Shown: positions 3,968 through 48,169 of the stretch, in pieces
Position numbering within the stretch: position 1 is the first letter of the stretch
Layout of the letters: each line of letters begins with the position of its first letter
Translations under genes and position numbers: made by a program
Notes under the pieces: generated by a model
Databases searched by the model: none
What the model saw: the letters and a program-made list of their open reading frames with translations, nothing else
Told to the model about the DNA's origin: nothing
From: Limnothrix sp. FACHB-406
GTDB lineage: Bacteria > Cyanobacteriota > Cyanobacteriia > CACIAM-69d
Direction of reading: 5' to 3'
Assembly (NCBI RefSeq): GCF_014698235.1
Contig: NZ_JACJSP010000005.1
Coordinates: forward strand, 124,001-188,000
Length of the DNA stretch: 64,000 nucleotides

Positions 3968-6229
3968 TTATGGCAGCAGACGGCTGACGAAATTGCCCCA
4001 GACCGCTGCCGCTTGGCCGCTGTTGCCATCGGTGGGTTTGCGGGTGTCGTTGCCCAACCAAACCCCAGCCGTTAGGTTGCGGCCAGGCACATAGCCAATA
4101 AACCAAAGGTCGGCACTGTCATCCGTTGTGCCGGTTTTGCCCACGGCTCCGGGCACATTGGCGGCCGATCGCCCCGTTCCTTGCACCACAACCCCCCGCA
4201 GCAGATCCGTCATGGTCTGGGCCACTTGGGGCGAGAGCACCGGTTGGTTAGCACCGGGCTGATCTGCCTGGGCATCGTACATGACGCGGCAGGTTTGCAG
4301 GTTTTGCGGGTCGGTGCAATCGCTGGTGTCCAGAACGCGAGTGATCGCCTTAGCGTGGTTAAAACGGCCATTGTTGGCCACGGCCGCAAAGGCTCCGGTC
4401 ATTTGCAGCAAGGTGGCTTCGCTTTCCCCCAGCACGAGGCCGGGAGTTTTGCGCAGGGGGCTGGTGACTCCCAAGCGCTGGGCCAAGCCAATCACCTCAT
4501 CCAGCCCCACCGCTTCGGCCACCCGCAGGGCGATCGGGTTTTCGGACAGGGCCACGCCGCTGACCATGTTCAGGGAACCACTGCCCGATCGACAGCCTCG
4601 AAACCGTTGCCCCATCCAATTCACGGGGGCGCAACTGTAGGCGGTGTTGGGGCTGATGCCTTTTTCCAGGGCGGCCGCATAGGCAAATAGCTTGAAGGTG
4701 GAGCCGGGCTGGCGCAGGCCGTTGGCGGCGCGGTTAAATTGGCTGTCTTCAAAGCTGCGGCCGCCACTCATGGCCAGAATGGCCCCATCGGTGGGGTCGA
4801 TCGCCACGATCGCCCCTTGACTGACTCCGGCCCGGCCGCCCTGGGCATCAATGAACTGTTGCAGGGCCCGATCAGCTTCGGTCTGGGCTGCTAAGTTCAA
4901 GCGGGTTTCAATTAAGAAATTGCCTTCGCGGGCCACGCCGGAACCAAAAAGCTGCTCCAATTCCTCAAAAACGTAGTTGAAGAAGTAGGGCGCACGGGTC
5001 GATCGCAAAATTTCCCGTGCTCGGGGACTCACCTCCACGCGCGATCGCCGGGCCCGCTTGAACTCCTCCAGGGTGACAGCGCCCTGATCCAACATCCGCT
5101 GCAAGACCAGATCTCGCCGTTGCACCGCTGTTTTGTAATTGCGGGCCGGGTTCCAGCGATTGGGGGCCGGCAAAATGCCCACCAGCATCGCCGCTTCGCC
5201 CAGGTCTAGATCCCGTGCGGATTTTTCAAAATAAAATCGAGCGGCATCCTCAAAGCCGGCCAAGTTGCCACCCAAGAACACTTGGTTCATGTAGGCCAGC
5301 AGCAACCGATCTTTGCCATAGAAACTTTCCAGCTTCAGGGCCACAATCGCCTCTTTGATTTTGCGACCGGCGGAATTGTCTGACCCCACATAATCCCGGT
5401 AAAGGGTGCGGGCCAGTTGCTGGGAAAGGGTGCTGGCTCCCTGTTGCAATTCCCCTTCCCGCGCGTTCACCACCAAGGCCCGCAAAATCCCGATCGGGTC
5501 AACGCCAAAGTGCCAGTAGTAGCGTGCATCCTCCGAAGCCAGCAATGCTTTTTTGAGGTAGGGCGAAAATTCTCCCAGGTTCTTGGCTTCCTGGTGGGCC
5601 CGCCGCTCGATCGCCTGGAGCGGTTGCCCATCCCCCGCCACCACAATCACCGGGCCGCGCTGGGCCTGGGGCAGGGGCAAAATCTGAATGTCCTGCCATT
5701 GCCAAATCACCGCCAAACTCACCAGCCCGATCGCCCCGGCTAACCCCGACAGGCCATAGCGCAGGACTTGCACCAAGGGCGTTGGCGGATCCACATATTG
5801 CAGCCGCACCGAGTCCGCCAACTCCGGCGGCCCCAACACGACCATTTCCCGGTGGCGCAAAATTTGCCCATTGATCCGTTTCTTGCCGCTGAATGTGCCG
5901 TTGGTGGAATCGCGGTCTTCAATGGCAAAGGTGCTGCCCAAAAAACTGGGAACCCGCCGCAAGCCCGCGTGGGTGGTGCTGACCACGGGGCTGTTGAGGG
6001 GGATGTCGTTGGCCTTGCTCGATCGCCCCAAAAGGTAATAGTCCCCCAACAGGGGATAGTCTCGGGGTGCGCTGCCCGCCTCATAGATCACGATGCGGGG
6101 CGGGTTGGCATTAGCCGCCAATTTCAGCCGGGCCAATTGCACCCGCGAAAGCTGGGTCACCGTTTGGCGCAGGCGGCCCAGGATGGTTTTGGCGGGTTGA
6201 GGCGGAGGCGGCGTAGGATTTGGGCCCAT
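3968..6229 (-). CDS. Class A penicillin-binding protein (PBP1A type) with N-terminal FHA domain
   Basis: This bifunctional peptidoglycan synthase has 753 residues. Residues ~50-145 form an FHA phosphothreonine-binding domain (LGRSSKANDI, then DRDSTNGTFSG and INGQ). A membrane anchor lies at ~158-178. The GT51 glycosyltransferase follows, with catalytic Glu in SEDARYY (Glu233) and GASTLSQQLAR (~264-274). The transpeptidase has SxxK (Ser510-Lys513), SEN (562-564) and KTG (698-700), so both activities look intact. The FHA domain would sit in the cytoplasm, suggesting control by Ser/Thr kinases (inference); FHA-fused PBPs are known from cyanobacteria. The ATG start at 6229 fits. It is transcribed alone. 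Confidence 0.95.
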   Translation of the reverse strand: MGPNPTPPPPQPAKTILGRLRQTVTQLSRVQLARLKLAANANPPRIVIYEAGSAPRDYPLLGDYYLLGRSSKANDIPLNSPVVSTTHAGLRRVPSFLGSTFAIEDRDSTNGTFSGKKRINGQILRHREMVVLGPPELADSVRLQYVDPPTPLVQVLRYGLSGLAGAIGLVSLAVIWQWQDIQILPLPQAQRGPVIVVAGDGQPLQAIERRAHQEAKNLGEFSPYLKKALLASEDARYYWHFGVDPIGILRALVVNAREGELQQGASTLSQQLARTLYRDYVGSDNSAGRKIKEAIVALKLESFYGKDRLLLAYMNQVFLGGNLAGFEDAARFYFEKSARDLDLGEAAMLVGILPAPNRWNPARNYKTAVQRRDLVLQRMLDQGAVTLEEFKRARRSRVEVSPRAREILRSTRAPYFFNYVFEELEQLFGSGVAREGNFLIETRLNLAAQTEADRALQQFIDAQGGRAGVSQGAIVAIDPTDGAILAMSGGRSFEDSQFNRAANGLRQPGSTFKLFAYAAALEKGISPNTAYSCAPVNWMGQRFRGCRSGSGSLNMVSGVALSENPIALRVAEAVGLDEVIGLAQRLGVTSPLRKTPGLVLGESEATLLQMTGAFAAVANNGRFNHAKAITRVLDTSDCTDPQNLQTCRVMYDAQADQPGANQPVLSPQVAQTMTDLLRGVVVQGTGRSAANVPGAVGKTGTTDDSADLWFIGYVPGRNLTAGVWLGNDTRKPTDGNSGQAAAVWGNFVSRLLP

Positions 6230-8804: not shown

Positions 8805-11333
8805 CTAGGATTTACATTTGGCTCCTAGGTTGAGGGGAATTTGAATCAAAAACTCAGTTCCTTCACCCACCTGCGAAAAGCATTCCAGTCTGCCCTGGTG
8901 TTTTTCCACAACAATTTGGTAACTGATGGACATGCCCATCCCGGTTCCTTTCCCGATCGGCTTGGTGGTGAAAAAGGGGTCAAAAATGCGCCTTTGGATG
9001 TCTAGGGGAATGCCGGGGCCATTATCAGCAATGCCTACCACTAGCCATTTAGATCGGGTGCTGGATTTGCCATCACTCAGCGAAGATCCGGTGGAATTGG
9101 TAGAGGGCAGTTCTATTTCTTGAATTCGAGTCCGAATCCGAATCCACTGACGATGGACTTGCAAGTCTTGATAATCGCGGTTAGCGGTGGCTTCTTCAAG
9201 GGCATCAATGGCATTGCTCAGAATGTTCATGATCACTTGATTGAATTGGCCGGGATAGCACTCGATCGGGGGCAGGTTGCCATATTCGCGAAGGATATCG
9301 ATCGCGGGGCGATTGGCCTTGGCTTTTAAACGGTGCTTAAGGATTGTGATTGTGCTGTCAATGCCTTCGTGCAAATCTACGGCCTTTAATTCCGCCTCAT
9401 CCAACCGTGAAAAATTGCGCAGTGATAACACAATCTCTCGAATGCGATCGCTCCCTACCTTCATGGAAGCCAAAATTTTCGTCAAATCTTCCTCTAAAAA
9501 ATCCAGTTCGATCGCCTCTTGTTCCTCCTGAATTTCTGCGACTGGCTCGGGATAGTACTTCGCGTATAACTGCAATAGTCTCAACAAATCCTGAGCGTAG
9601 GTACGTACATGCTCCAGGTTGCCGTAGATAAAGTTCACCGGGTTATTAATTTCATGGGCAATCCCCGCCACTAATTGACCCAAACTGGACATTTTTTCGG
9701 ACTGCACCAGTTGCAATTGGGTTCTTTGTAATTCACTCAGAGTGCGTTCCAGTCGATCGCGGGCTTCTGTCATGGCGGCCATTTGGGACAGGCTCGTCCA
9801 ACAGGCGATCGCCACCCCCAAAAACGCCACCGTAATTAACACAATGCTGAACACGGCTCCGTGGCTGCCGAAGGAAAATCGATCCAACCCAGCCCGCGCG
9901 AACCAACCAATGCTGACCGCGCCACAAAGCAGCAGAATCAGCACCGTGACCTGAAACACCACCCAATCGCGTTGGATGTTGATGGGCCTTGGGCGGTAGC
10001 GGTGACTCCACCAGGCCGGCTGGCAGAGGGCGATCGGGCAATTTCCCACCCCCTGGGCCGCCACGCCGACCGCCATGGGCAACAGCAAGCCAATCAGCCA
10101 ATCTTGCCAGCCCCAAGCCAAGCCACCCACCACAAACACGATCGCCTCCATGACCAAAAACAGCAGCGACCATCGGGGCCAGAGCACTTCCGGGCGTTTC
10201 CGTTGCAGCCACAGCCCCAAATGGATGCCCATCATGGCGCTGAGGTAACCCGTCCCGGTAACCATCACCACCCGCGACACATTGCCCCAAGCCAAACAGA
10301 GCAAACTCACCCCCAAGGTGAACAACAGGCCCGGCTCCAAAACTCCGCGCGGCGAAACCACCGAAAACAGGGCCGGGAGATGGCGGTCTTGGGCTAACTG
10401 GTAAAGCACCCGGGGGCAGTTGGAAACGGCCGTGGCGGAACTGAGCAGGCAACCGGAAGCAATCAAAAACGTCACCAGCCCGGGCGTGAGGCTGCCCCAA
10501 AACGGCCCCGCCGCCGCCATTAGGTGCAAATAGGCGCTGTCACCTAGCCGGGGAGAAATAGCCAACCGCGCCAACAACCACGACCCCAGGACATAAACAA
10601 TGGGTAGCGCGATCGCAGCGGCCACCAAGCAATCCAGAGTGCGGCGCGGTTTGCGACTGTCAGCCACAAAAGAGGAAGCCGTTTCACAGCCATAGACCGC
10701 ATAAATGGCCACAAAAAACCACTTGGCCCAATCCGTGAAATCCAAGTTGAAAGGAATCGGTGCAAACAGCCCTGGACTTTGAGGCGAAAAGCTCAACCAA
10801 CTAAAGCCTTGAAGGCAAAAAACTAATAAGCAGCTAATAGCAGGAATGACAAAAAAGGCATGTAAAATTCCGACGGTTCGGGAGTTGCTGAAGGTGACAA
10901 TATAAGGCAGCAGGGTGAATAAAATGCGAAAAGCGGTGACTGGACAATCCACCCCCAGCGGTTCCAAGCTGACCTGAATTAGGTCAGTCAAAATGATGGC
11001 ATTCATGGGCGGAACCGAGACCCAACCCAACCAATAGCCGATCGCGCTGTAGCGGGCTAAAAATGGGAACTTATGGAGTAACTGAGTGGCATAGTTTGGC
11101 GTTCCGCCCGATCGATCTTGGTCATGGATCCCAAGCTGTCTGACCTGCAAATTCAGCAAAGTGCCAATCACGGCTCCCGGAATCCAAACCCACAGGGAGC
11201 CAAGACCCAAAGCCGCATTCATTGCCGGTGCGGTTCCCAGCCAAAGCAACAAACCGCTGAAACCAAAACTCCAAGTTTCAATGGAACCCAAAGTGCGGGG
11301 CAATTTAAATGCAAACCGGGAGGACTGAGACAT
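8805..11333 (-). CDS. APC-type amino acid permease fused to a histidine kinase
   Basis: This 842-residue fusion has an unusual sensor. Residues ~10-425 look like an amino-acid/polyamine permease of the APC superfamily: about 12 hydrophobic helices, GFSGLLLWLGTAPAMNAALG as the first, and YGCETASSFVADSRKPRRTL resembling the conserved helix-6 region. Two more helices follow (~455-478 and ~492-514), then a coiled linker (519-547). The kinase has its phospho-acceptor His560 in GIAHEINNPVN, an N-box (MNILSNAIDALEEA), G1 (ADNGPGIP) and G2 (GKGTGMGMS). The frame is continuous from ATG 11333, so this is a true fusion. It probably senses or transports an amino acid and signals to an unlinked response regulator (inference). 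The core closely resembles the kinase at 46.4 kb. Confidence 0.9.
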   Translation of the reverse strand: MSQSSRFAFKLPRTLGSIETWSFGFSGLLLWLGTAPAMNAALGLGSLWVWIPGAVIGTLLNLQVRQLGIHDQDRSGGTPNYATQLLHKFPFLARYSAIGYWLGWVSVPPMNAIILTDLIQVSLEPLGVDCPVTAFRILFTLLPYIVTFSNSRTVGILHAFFVIPAISCLLVFCLQGFSWLSFSPQSPGLFAPIPFNLDFTDWAKWFFVAIYAVYGCETASSFVADSRKPRRTLDCLVAAAIALPIVYVLGSWLLARLAISPRLGDSAYLHLMAAAGPFWGSLTPGLVTFLIASGCLLSSATAVSNCPRVLYQLAQDRHLPALFSVVSPRGVLEPGLLFTLGVSLLCLAWGNVSRVVMVTGTGYLSAMMGIHLGLWLQRKRPEVLWPRWSLLFLVMEAIVFVVGGLAWGWQDWLIGLLLPMAVGVAAQGVGNCPIALCQPAWWSHRYRPRPINIQRDWVVFQVTVLILLLCGAVSIGWFARAGLDRFSFGSHGAVFSIVLITVAFLGVAIACWTSLSQMAAMTEARDRLERTLSELQRTQLQLVQSEKMSSLGQLVAGIAHEINNPVNFIYGNLEHVRTYAQDLLRLLQLYAKYYPEPVAEIQEEQEAIELDFLEEDLTKILASMKVGSDRIREIVLSLRNFSRLDEAELKAVDLHEGIDSTITILKHRLKAKANRPAIDILREYGNLPPIECYPGQFNQVIMNILSNAIDALEEATANRDYQDLQVHRQWIRIRTRIQEIELPSTNSTGSSLSDGKSSTRSKWLVVGIADNGPGIPLDIQRRIFDPFFTTKPIGKGTGMGMSISYQIVVEKHQGRLECFSQVGEGTEFLIQIPLNLGAKCKS

Positions 11334-12580
11334 GGATCACAAAAATTCCGTAGACACTGAAAGTTTTCGCCATTGCAAAAACTGACAAAAGTGAATAAAA
11401 GGCGATTTTTAATGCCCTGAATGAAGAATAGTTTATGAACTAATGTGAGTCTTGTGATGTCCCTTTAATGGTGATTAAAAATTAAAAGTGGCTAAAAAAT
11501 TGTGACTATGGTAACCAAAAAGGTTTATCCAACAGTTCATAAAATAATTTAACTACTCCTTAGTTTAACGCTAATAGATGATTTACTGACAATCAAAGTT
11601 TAAACAAAGCTCCAAAATCAGGCCTTAAGTTGCCAGAATCAGGCCTTAAGTTGATTGAAATCCTCAGCCTTCAAGAGCTTGCTTTGAATCTCCGTATTTT
11701 TTGAGACCTGTTTGGTGGTAAAACGCACCCGAATCAGAGAACTGAATTTGAAATGAAGCATTGGTTGAAAGACTGATTAATGGTTCAGTGGTAGTGATGG
11801 ATAAATGCAAGGGCGCTAGATGTCAACATGAAAAAATGAGGATGAATATCAAAATCACCAATTCTCTACGTTGATGTTTTGGAGCTAATCGCAATCTGTA
11901 AAATCTCAATTATTTTAGATATAAATATGATTAGAAGTTGTTTTCTGAAAAATAATTAGTGAGCTAAACATGATCTTAAGATTAGTCAAAATTCATTTTG
12001 ATTGATGCTTAAGCTGATTGATGTCTTGAGACTCGCTATCAAAACAAAGATTGATTAAAGAAAGAGCTAAATGGGGGGGCAATTTGACTTGCCAAGGGAG
12101 TTAATCGGCTTAAGACCTCGTAATCAATCGAAAATTGATCACTAATTCGTGATTTGGATTGAATTGTCCTAAAAATCTCTGAATTTGTTGAGTTTTTGAT
12201 AAATTTTGAAAGTTTCTATGGATCAATCATCTTGAAAACTCAGTAGCCTTGACTGGGTAACGTCAAAATGATTGTCTGATCGAGGCCATTAGAAAATAAA
12301 TAGAAAATAAATATTGAGTATCAACCTGCTGGAGCGAGCTGTGCGGCTGAGATGTTGAAACTTTGATATGAGAAATAGAGCTGTGAAATTAGTTGATGGT
12401 GAAATAGGGTATTGAAAATCTGATCGGCCTGACCTTGTTTTGGGTATTTTCAAGTCAAGTTAACGTAGCGAGTGAATGGTGTTTGAGCCGCGACCAATTG
12501 CGTTGGCTAGGCTGTGAGAAAAATAGGCATGGAAAACCAAAAGGTTGCCGTGAAATTACTGGGTTATGGGGAGATGGTGA
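11334..12580. other. AT-rich gene-free region (1.25 kb)
   Basis: This region separates divergent genes and is much richer in A and T than its flanks. No frame has convincing coding character. It holds a 21-bp direct duplication (11616-11657, core AATCAGGCCTTAAGTTG), a 16-bp near-duplication (from 12000) and AGAAAATAAAT twice near 12300. It may be decayed sequence or a large regulatory region. Confidence 0.6.
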
Positions 12581-22293: not shown

Positions 22294-23472
22294 ATGAACG
22301 CAGAGGGATTCGTACAACTGAGTTGGGCGATCGGCTCGATCGTCCTGGCCGAAATCGTGCGCGATTTTTATCATGTGGCCGGCCACTATTGGGAGCCGCT
22401 CCAACGGGCCCACAACATGCACCACAAGGTCTATCGCCGTGACCTAACCATCAGCAGCCTTGATGCCTATTACAAAGCTCAATTGGCCAACGATGCGCCC
22501 GAAGCGGCCACCATGGCTTCGGTGGTGGGACTGACGGCGGCGGTGTCGGGTCAGTGGGGAATGTGGCTGGGTTGCATCTATTCCCTGGGTTTTTTGGCCA
22601 CGGCGATCGCCCGATCGCGCGGCTACCTGATGGAAACCGACCTAACCCACAAGGCGGGCGACCTGGATAGCAACCCCTCCGTCTGGACGGTGAATCGCAC
22701 CTACCATTGGCGACACCATTTTGATTCGGGCAATGCCTATTACTGTGGGTCTTTGACGTTTGTGGATAAGCTGCTGGGCACAGCCCTGTCCCTGAAGGGC
22801 AAAACAATCGCCATTACCGGGGCATCGGGCAGCATGGGTCGGGCCCTGATTGCCGTGTTGCAAAGCCGAGGGGCGAGGTTGGTGGCCCTGACAACGCGCG
22901 AAGGAACCACCTTTGAGGGCAATGTGCGGGTGGTCACTTGGCGATCGGGCGAAGAGGCGGCCCTGCGCGAAACCCTGGCCAATGTGGATATTTTGATCAT
23001 CAACCATGGGGTGAATCAGGGCGATCGCTCGGCGGCGGCCGTGGCCCAAGCACTGGAGGTGAACACCCTGTCCGCTTGGCGGTTGATGGAACTATTTTTT
23101 GAGACGGTCACCAAGTCGGAACACCGGGCCCTGAAGGAAGTTTGGGTCAACACCTCCGAAGCGGAAGTGAACCCGGCGTTTAGCCCCCTATATGAGCTAT
23201 CGAAACGGGCGATCGGGGATTTGATCACCCTGCGGCGCTTGGATGCGCCCTGTGTGGTGCGGAAGCTGATTCTTGGCCCGTTCAAGAGCGATCTCAATCC
23301 GATCGGGATTATGTCGGCGGGGTGGGTTGCACGGGCGATCGTGGCCTTGGCGGAACGGGATGTGCGCAACATCATCGTGACGATCAATCCCTTGACCTAT
23401 CTGCTCTTTCCAATCAAAGAGTTGGCAAAATCGCTCTACTTCCGTGCCTTCGCCAAGCCCGATCGCGCCTAG
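22294..23472 (+). CDS. Sterol desaturase-like / short-chain dehydrogenase fusion
   Basis: The 392-residue product has two parts. Residues 1-~165 resemble a membrane fatty-acid-hydroxylase/sterol-desaturase fold: HVAGHYW, HNMHHK and WRHHFDSGNAYY supply His clusters that could bind a di-iron centre, among hydrophobic helices. Residues ~168-390 form a short-chain dehydrogenase with the nucleotide-binding motif GASGSMGRALIAV; the catalytic Tyr-x3-Lys appears as YELSKRA. This architecture is known from cyanobacteria, where it is annotated as bifunctional; the substrate (sterol, lipid or carotenoid) is not established from sequence. ATG 22294 starts directly before the first helix. Confidence 0.8.
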   Translation: MNAEGFVQLSWAIGSIVLAEIVRDFYHVAGHYWEPLQRAHNMHHKVYRRDLTISSLDAYYKAQLANDAPEAATMASVVGLTAAVSGQWGMWLGCIYSLGFLATAIARSRGYLMETDLTHKAGDLDSNPSVWTVNRTYHWRHHFDSGNAYYCGSLTFVDKLLGTALSLKGKTIAITGASGSMGRALIAVLQSRGARLVALTTREGTTFEGNVRVVTWRSGEEAALRETLANVDILIINHGVNQGDRSAAAVAQALEVNTLSAWRLMELFFETVTKSEHRALKEVWVNTSEAEVNPAFSPLYELSKRAIGDLITLRRLDAPCVVRKLILGPFKSDLNPIGIMSAGWVARAIVALAERDVRNIIVTINPLTYLLFPIKELAKSLYFRAFAKPDRA

Positions 23473-46405: not shown

Positions 46406-48169
46406 ATGATTCATCTGTCAACGCTTTTTCGAGTTTCCCAGGCGATCGCTCGTACCATTGAAATCAACGAGCTGCTACAAGTGTTATCCAGCCATGTTCT
46501 GGAATATTCAGGAGCAGAAAAATGCGCCCTGCTTCTATTGCAAGACGGCGAGTGGGAACTGCGAGCCTTGGCAGATTCTCGAGGGGTGCAGCTAACAACG
46601 CTGCCTCTTGCATATAGCCAAGATGTGCCCAGTAAGCTCATTCAATACGCAGAAACGCACCTAAAACCAATTGCCATTGAAAACCTTTGCACTGATTTGC
46701 CTGTAATTGGCAATTATTTAAAAATTCATCGCCCTCAAAGTTTGCTTTGCTTGCCATTGCTGAACCAAGAGACTCTGTTGGGCATTTTATATCTGGAACA
46801 TCGATCGGCTCAGGGACTCTTTACGGACGATCGGCTCATGGTTTTGGATTGCTTGGCGAACCAAGCCGCGATCGCCCTAGATCATGCAAGGCTTTACCAA
46901 ACCGTGCAACGCAATGAATCTCGTTTGCGTGCCGTGTATGAGTCTAATAATGATGCGATTATGCTCCTGAGCGAAAAGTGCTTTGTGGATTGTAATTCGG
47001 CAACATTGGCTATCTTTAAGTGCCCAGCAAAATCAGAATTTTGTGGTAAGCATCCTTCGCAAATTTCTCCGGAATATCAACCCAACGGGCGCTTATCGAG
47101 CGAGGCTGCGACTGATCATATTGTGACGGCACTCACCCGGGGCTATGACCGTTTTGAGTGGCAACATTGCCGCTGGGATGGCTCGGAATTTATTGCCGAA
47201 GTGCAGCTCTGCCGAATGGAAATAGATGATCAGGCAATTTTGCAGGCGATCGTTCGGGATATTAGCGATCGAAAGGCCGTGGAGGCGGCCATTCGCCAAA
47301 AATCTGCAGAACTGGAACAGGCACTCTTGCAACTGCAAAAGACACAATTGCAACTGGTGCAAATTGAAAAAATGTCGGTTTTGGGAAACTTGGTGGCAGG
47401 GGTAGCCCACGAAATTAATAACCCGATCGGGTGCATTGTGGGCAATGTTAGCGTTATGCAGAATTACGTCATCGACTTGATGGAAACCTTGGATCTCTAT
47501 CAAGCGAATTTCCCTGAGCCGGGCATCACCATTGAACAGCAATTAGATGCGATCGACCTGGACTATTTGCGGCAAGATGTGCCGGATGTGATGCAAGCCA
47601 TTAAGGATTCAGGCGATCGAATTGCCGCCATTAGCCAGAGTCTGAGAACATTTTCGCGAACAGATGGGGCTGAAAAGCAACTCTTTAATGTGTGTGATGG
47701 GCTTGATAGTACGGTTTTGATCTTGCGACATCGGCTCAAAGCCAATGAGCAACGACCGAAAATTGAAGTGGTGACCCACTATGACCAACTGCCGGAAATT
47801 AACTGTTTTCCGGGGCAACTCAACCAGGTTTTCATGAATATTTTGGCCAACGCGATCGACGCGATCGATGAATTGAGCGAAGGCAAAAGTTTTCAAGAAC
47901 TAGCCCAATCGCCGCACCAAATTACGATCAGCACAAGGGCGATCGAGTCGGGAATTCAAATTACGATTGCGGATGATGGGCCGGGGATGCCCCCTGAGGT
48001 GCAGCGGCGAATTTTTGACTATATGTTCACCACCAAAGAAGTGGGCAAAGGAACCGGCTTAGGGTTGGCCATTGCCCATCAAATTGTGGTGGAAACCCAT
48101 GGCGGGACGATCGATTTGCAATCCCAAGTGGGCGAAGGCAGCACATTCACGCTCACTTTGCCCTGTTGA
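46406..48169 (+). CDS. Histidine kinase with GAF and PAS sensor domains
   Basis: The 587-residue soluble kinase has a GAF domain at ~5-165 (SQAIARTIEINELLQVLSSH start, LGILYLEHRSAQGLF), a PAS domain at ~172-295 (AVYESNNDAIMLLSE, ending IVRDISDRKAVEAAI), a coiled linker, and the kinase core with phospho-acceptor His335 (GVAHEINNPIG), N-box (MNILANAIDAIDE), G1 (ADDGPGMP) and G2 (GKGTGLGLA). GAF domains of this type can bind a chromophore, but no conserved Cys-His is evident here. It could be a shortened form of the large Ser/Thr-kinase-AAA-GAF-HK proteins of cyanobacteria. No response regulator is adjacent. Confidence 0.9.
   Translation: MIHLSTLFRVSQAIARTIEINELLQVLSSHVLEYSGAEKCALLLLQDGEWELRALADSRGVQLTTLPLAYSQDVPSKLIQYAETHLKPIAIENLCTDLPVIGNYLKIHRPQSLLCLPLLNQETLLGILYLEHRSAQGLFTDDRLMVLDCLANQAAIALDHARLYQTVQRNESRLRAVYESNNDAIMLLSEKCFVDCNSATLAIFKCPAKSEFCGKHPSQISPEYQPNGRLSSEAATDHIVTALTRGYDRFEWQHCRWDGSEFIAEVQLCRMEIDDQAILQAIVRDISDRKAVEAAIRQKSAELEQALLQLQKTQLQLVQIEKMSVLGNLVAGVAHEINNPIGCIVGNVSVMQNYVIDLMETLDLYQANFPEPGITIEQQLDAIDLDYLRQDVPDVMQAIKDSGDRIAAISQSLRTFSRTDGAEKQLFNVCDGLDSTVLILRHRLKANEQRPKIEVVTHYDQLPEINCFPGQLNQVFMNILANAIDAIDELSEGKSFQELAQSPHQITISTRAIESGIQITIADDGPGMPPEVQRRIFDYMFTTKEVGKGTGLGLAIAHQIVVETHGGTIDLQSQVGEGSTFTLTLPC

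Follow-up and report, generated by a model that had tools for sequence, protein, structure and literature searches.

A cyanobacterial membrane module with an APC permease fold, fused to histidine kinases and other signaling outputs, as a probable sensory domain

We analyzed a 64,000-nucleotide stretch of the Limnothrix sp. FACHB-406 genome (contig NZ_JACJSP010000005.1, positions 124,001 to 188,000; hereafter, the window), in which a single open reading frame joins an APC-type permease domain to a histidine kinase (HK). The protein probably acts as a receptor kinase in the membrane. Its input domain would have descended from a permease of the APC (amino-acid/polyamine/organocation; TC 2.A.3) family and would relay the presence of a solute through two additional helices, TM13 and TM14, to the phospho-acceptor His560. 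Its 14-helix module is a conserved cyanobacterial family and not an isolated fusion, and the members of this family carry several kinds of signaling output behind the same membrane part.

RESULTS AND DISCUSSION

Domain architecture and predicted fold

The features of the gene are listed in Table 1. Pfam profiles matched AA_permease at residues 26–349 (E = 4.9e-9, over the cut-off), HisKA at residues 551–578, and HATPase_c at residues 696–835, and in a search of the whole genome with the AA_permease_2-type profile PF13520, the window protein scored 71 bits, also over the cut-off. Pfam detected no SSF (SSS/SLC5) or Ammonium_transp match in the open reading frame, and the stretch from TM14 to the DHp domain is free of PAS and GAF domains. 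All the kinase boxes (H, N, G1, F, and G2) are present, with the conserved residues H560, N703, N707, D770, G772, G774, F787, G796, G798, and G800. Within its own genome, the permease part is unique to this protein, and dozens of paralogues of the kinase core are encoded there. One of the many paralogues sharing this cyanobacterial kinase core, a GAF-PAS HK, is encoded in the window itself (46406–48169, + strand). Two other multidomain proteins in the window are a class A penicillin-binding protein (transglycosylase plus transpeptidase) that carries a fused FHA domain (3968–6229, − strand), and a protein in which a fatty-acid-hydroxylase-like region occurs together with an NAD-binding region of the short-chain-dehydrogenase type (22294–23472, + strand).

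Table 1. Coordinates of the APC-module HK gene, its domains, and its upstream region in the window
Feature	Position	Strand	Remarks
APC-module histidine kinase, whole ORF with stop	8805..11333	-	842 aa, ATG start
APC-fold permease domain, residues 9-447, 12 TM	9993..11309	-	Pfam AA_permease; VIA-align Z ~34
TM13-TM14, two extra helices, residues 457-517	9783..9965	-	AF2 helices 456-484 and 492 on; conserved residues
Helical linker, residues 518-548	9690..9782	-	Full-length AF2 model
DHp/HisKA domain, residues 549-644	9402..9689	-	Phospho-acceptor His560 at 9654-9656
CA/HATPase_c domain, residues 690-836	8826..9266	-	N, G1, F, and G2 boxes
AT-rich intergenic region, 1.25 kb, upstream of ORF	11334..12580	.	

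An AF2 model of residues 1–525, built on 42 homologues (mean pLDDT 86), matched APC transporters over residues ~9–447, with VIA Z scores of 34.7 for KimA, 34.7 for y+LAT1, 34.0 for AdiC, and 33.2 for ApcT, and the only solved relative recovered by sequence profile was the lysine permease LysP (E = 1.4e-5). An APC permease fold is thus confidently predicted for this region. Behind this fold, the model places the two extra helices at residues 457–484 (TM13) and 492–517 (TM14). The AF2 helices fit 14 TM segments, and on this assignment, itself derived from the AF2 helices, lysine and arginine residues in the loops number 22 inside versus 2 outside, so that both ends are predicted to be cytoplasmic, as the kinase requires. 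The N-in/C-in, 14-TM topology is therefore also predicted with confidence. The sequence-only reading of this DNA had proposed an APC-type permease of about 12 helices, two additional helices, a linker, and a complete kinase core; Pfam, the AF2 models, and the conserved boxes bear out this composition.

In the full-length AF2 model, which also rests on 42 sequences, TM14, the linker, and the first DHp helix form one continuous helix (residues 492–593), although the pLDDT of the linker is only ~50–70 and is low around residues 547–553. Approximately 40 residues separate TM14 from His560 in the model, with no bundle between them. TM14 ends in the conserved motif A-C-W-T-x-L-P-Q (ACWTSLSQ in the window protein), and the W512-T513...Q517 residues of this junction are kept before every output type; a later tally of the motif is biased because the rows had been chosen by that motif.

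Conservation of the permease module and its closest free relative

Across 42 members, approximately 100 residues of the TM helices are nearly invariant. The invariant positions include E19, W104, P229, W279-G280, T301, R308, Y311-Q312, and D316, together with Q461, W477, W512-T513, and Q517 in the two extra helices, and W31, P36, E217, D225-S226, H371, and R378 are nearly invariant. The TM6 motif YxCETA...DSRxP (Y-A-C-E-T) and the R-x-L-Y-Q-x-x-x-D loop after TM8 both align with APC transporters. The usual TM1 motif G-x-G-I (G-[AST]-G-I), which in APC transporters goes with an unwound TM1 that receives the substrate carboxylate, is absent from the module, in which W31 appears to match the first glycine, the TM1 register being uncertain. 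AF2 predicts an unbroken TM1.

The nearest free relative of the module that we saw (L250:583-2937) adjoins a creatininase-like gene and scored 600 bits against the NCBIfam trimethylamine N-oxide permease model, below the cut-off of 690. Methylamines are therefore a candidate ligand class for the module. Like the module, the free relative has YAxETA in TM6 and is devoid of the GxG of TM1 and of the TM5 lysine. We considered the loss of the TM1 glycine motif or of the TM5 lysine as proof that the module does not transport, and rejected it because this free relative lacks both.

A conserved cyanobacterial family

A second genome of the genus, assembled independently (G001), carries a copy with the same architecture and 98% identity. 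The permease part was found in 46 of 194 relatives at 44–98% identity, at full length in most, and in 73 of the 390 cyanobacterial genomes of a class scan. When 84,980 species genomes were scanned with family-specific patterns, 228 relatives were recovered, of which the best 80 were all cyanobacterial. The module is present in dozens of genera. No plasmid copies were found. The sequence-only reading had treated the protein as one odd fusion; it belongs instead to a family of cyanobacterial proteins whose outputs are of five or more kinds, and some relatives have linked regulators. That two genes had been joined by an assembly or sequencing error, the possibility which that reading had left open, is ruled out for practical purposes by the copy in a separate assembly and by the recurrence of the architecture in dozens of genera; nothing was found in its favor. 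One genome carries three tandem family copies within 8 kb (G276:C1:1184756-1192660; L253), and decayed copies with several in-frame stops were seen at two places (L086, G172:C1:557178-558194; and G376:C3:4044089-4044592).

Constant fusion and exchange of outputs

In the class scan of 390 genomes, every full-length copy of the module lay in an open frame of at least 738 aa, and no free-standing full-length module was found; shorter matches were contig-end fragments, degenerate copies interrupted by stops, or weak hits to part of other permeases. The outputs behind the 14 TM helices are direct HK (the window type), PAS-HK, hybrid HK-REC, HisKA_2-type HK, PAS-GGDEF-EAL, and PAS-SpoIIE phosphatase, and PAS or GAF domains follow TM14 in most relatives. 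When 116 distinct members were typed with custom domain profiles, Pfam-checked on samples, 51 were PAS-HK, about 25 direct HK, 21 PAS-GGDEF-EAL, and about eight hybrid HK with REC, the remainder comprising two PAS-SpoIIE proteins, one HisKA_2-type HK, a few PAS-GAF-HK, and some truncated or unclassified members; these counts are inflated by the many Nostoc genomes. Further loci yielded the same output types.

A tree of the permease part, thinned to 67 members, requires at least 14 changes of output label, as against a least possible 6 for seven labels and a mean of 31 after shuffling. The GGDEF-EAL group forms one clade, and SpoIIE outputs occur in two places; rooting on free permeases is unreliable because the outgroup branches are very long. 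At one of the SpoIIE loci (L127:7986-11869), the APC-PAS-SpoIIE phosphatase gene is followed by genes for a DUF6272 protein and a STAS-domain protein, likely a partner-switching module fed by the permease-like domain.

Gene neighborhoods

The window gene is flanked downstream by a convergent sdhA-like gene 80 bp away and upstream by a divergent histone-deacetylase-family gene 1.25 kb away, and it is probably transcribed alone. No sigma-70-like site was found in the 1.25-kb upstream region, and no response regulator adjoins the gene, as had been noted from the sequence at the outset. Direct-HK or short copies of the family have no shared neighbor. Regulators do accompany some relatives: a CheY-like gene lies −4 to 12 bp behind four PAS-HK copies (L126, L132, L133, and L135), followed in three of these four by a gene for a protein of 445–463 aa that starts with receiver sequence and clusters with kinases, and a similar receiver-kinase-like gene follows the hybrids L059, L060, L061, and L070.

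Twelve loci seemed to carry a linked HNOBA-HK gene, but most of these links arose only because shared kinase cores had been clustered together. The sole confirmed case is L055:10062-12045, where H-NOX and HNOBA-HK genes lie directly downstream of an APC-PAS-HK gene; the genes at the other loci start with receiver-like sequence. Among the 21 Nostocales APC-PAS-GGDEF-EAL copies, most (L065, L123, L149, and others) have a convergent histidine decarboxylase gene downstream (PRK02769, checked in L065), and 17 have a ParA-like ATPase gene upstream. Histidine as the ligand was set aside as a weak lead, since the decarboxylase gene, 55–308 bp downstream, reflects synteny in Nostocales and does not form an operon with the sensor gene.

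Receptor, transporter, or anchor

Because the module never occurs free and its outputs are exchanged, it is best read as a sensor; tightly conserved and driving kinases, c-di-GMP enzymes, and phosphatases, it would most simply be an input domain. The case for this role is indirect but strong. The initial suggestion of a sensor for the passage or binding of an amino acid is supported as regards the sensor, by the constant fusion and the exchange of outputs; an amino acid, or its passage, would be a candidate signal only. The TM1 glycine motif is absent, as it is in the closest free permease. In the receptor model, a small solute, outside or in a membrane-facing cavity, would bind the old substrate site between TM1, TM3, TM6, and TM8; the APC core would rock on binding and pass the motion to the TM13-TM14 pair. 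With TM14 and the start of the DHp domain forming a single helix in the model, a tilt or rotation of TM14 would change the autophosphorylation of His560, from which the phosphate would pass to a response regulator encoded elsewhere. In relatives, the same signal would reach c-di-GMP enzymes, a SpoIIE-type phosphatase, or a phosphorelay. The constant fusion, the conservation, and the exchange of outputs on which this model builds are observed, and the fold and topology are predicted; we infer ligand binding, the direction of control, helix coupling, the loss of transport, and the response regulator.

A less probable reading is a true transceptor, in which the APC domain has remained a working transporter of an organic solute, and transport flux or occupancy modulates the kinase. 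The full 12-TM APC fold, the conserved TM6 and TM8 loop motifs, and the precedent of CbrA (PMC7096432, PMC13022988) are consistent with such activity, as is the closest free permease, which shares the TM6 motif and likewise lacks the TM1 and TM5 features. It would, however, be unusual for a working transporter never to occur free, and the tryptophan that apparently corresponds to the first TM1 glycine and the predicted unbroken TM1 would also argue against transport, subject to the uncertain register noted above. It is improbable that the APC domain serves solely to hold the protein in the membrane, or that it is a transporter under the control of the attached kinase, with the signal being cytoplasmic (PAS or DHp). 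The PAS or GAF domain after TM14 in most relatives fits this reading, and the PAS of most members might be the true sensor, a consideration that also counts against the receptor model; CbrA without its SLC5 domain, moreover, still signals (PMC7096432). However, the window type has neither PAS nor GAF between TM14 and DHp, and so many nearly invariant TM residues would be surprising in a mere anchor. On balance, with somewhat less assurance than for the receptor kinase itself, we favor the view that the 14-TM module is an integral-membrane sensory domain, so far without a name, which arose a single time, in cyanobacteria, from an APC permease, with transport lost or subordinated. It would then have been adopted as a general-purpose receptor for kinases, c-di-GMP enzymes, and partner-switching phosphatases, and would represent a class of prokaryotic receptors built on the LeuT/APC fold.

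Comparison with known transporter-derived sensors

The early comparison with CbrA, as a transporter-kinase fusion with another transporter domain, was apt: the window protein matches AA_permease and not SSF. The APC permease fold is also used for sensing by yeast Ssy1 and Gap1 and by E. coli LysP-CadC, as proposed here; unlike the window protein, these are not fused to kinases, and signal via cytosolic tails or a separate one-component partner. Gap1 is cited in PMC11109136.

The SLC5/STAC kinases CbrA and CrbS/MxtR resemble the window protein in that a LeuT-fold transporter domain precedes a histidine kinase within a single polypeptide (PMC7096432, PMC13022988, PMC7918813), and in the variety of outputs among their relatives, which include PAS, REC, diguanylate cyclase, or PP2C; SLC5 domains occur with diguanylate cyclase (PMC7096432) and PP2C (PMC7918813) outputs. 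They differ in that their transporter is SSS/SLC5 with 13 TM, rather than APC proper with 12+2 TM; in the STAC four-helix domain between membrane and kinase, which the window protein lacks as judged from the anatomy of the model and not from a STAC profile; and in a usually associated response regulator, which does not adjoin the window gene but accompanies some of its relatives. CbrA, the nearest analogue, transports histidine, and its kinase activity is not measurably altered by histidine (PMC7096432); the latter counts by analogy against the receptor model. The ammonium sensor histidine kinase Ks-Amt5 is likewise a transporter domain turned receptor, with transport lost, fused directly to a kinase without HAMP and with no known regulator, but it has the trimeric Amt/Rh fold and senses ammonium (PMC5764959). 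The 5TMR sensor kinases are also prokaryotic receptors sharing a fold with transporters (PMC11109136), in their case the ECF S-component fold; that relation comes from predicted structures, whereas a sequence profile suffices to detect the APC relation described here. In a 2024 study, the S-component fold was put forward as the first prokaryotic transceptor case under a strict definition that excludes CbrA (PMC11109136). We found no description of an APC-kinase fusion family in the literature searched, which is weak evidence of absence, as most subscription journals lay outside it.

Receptors derived from transporters are described as rare in prokaryotes, the known cases being built on the SLC5, Amt, or S-component fold. 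A large APC-derived family recognizable by sequence offers many natural variants with which to ask how transporter conformations drive signaling helices. The family also hints at what many cyanobacterial kinases that lack a known signal might do, and it flags proteins that are likely annotated as amino-acid transporters but may not transport.
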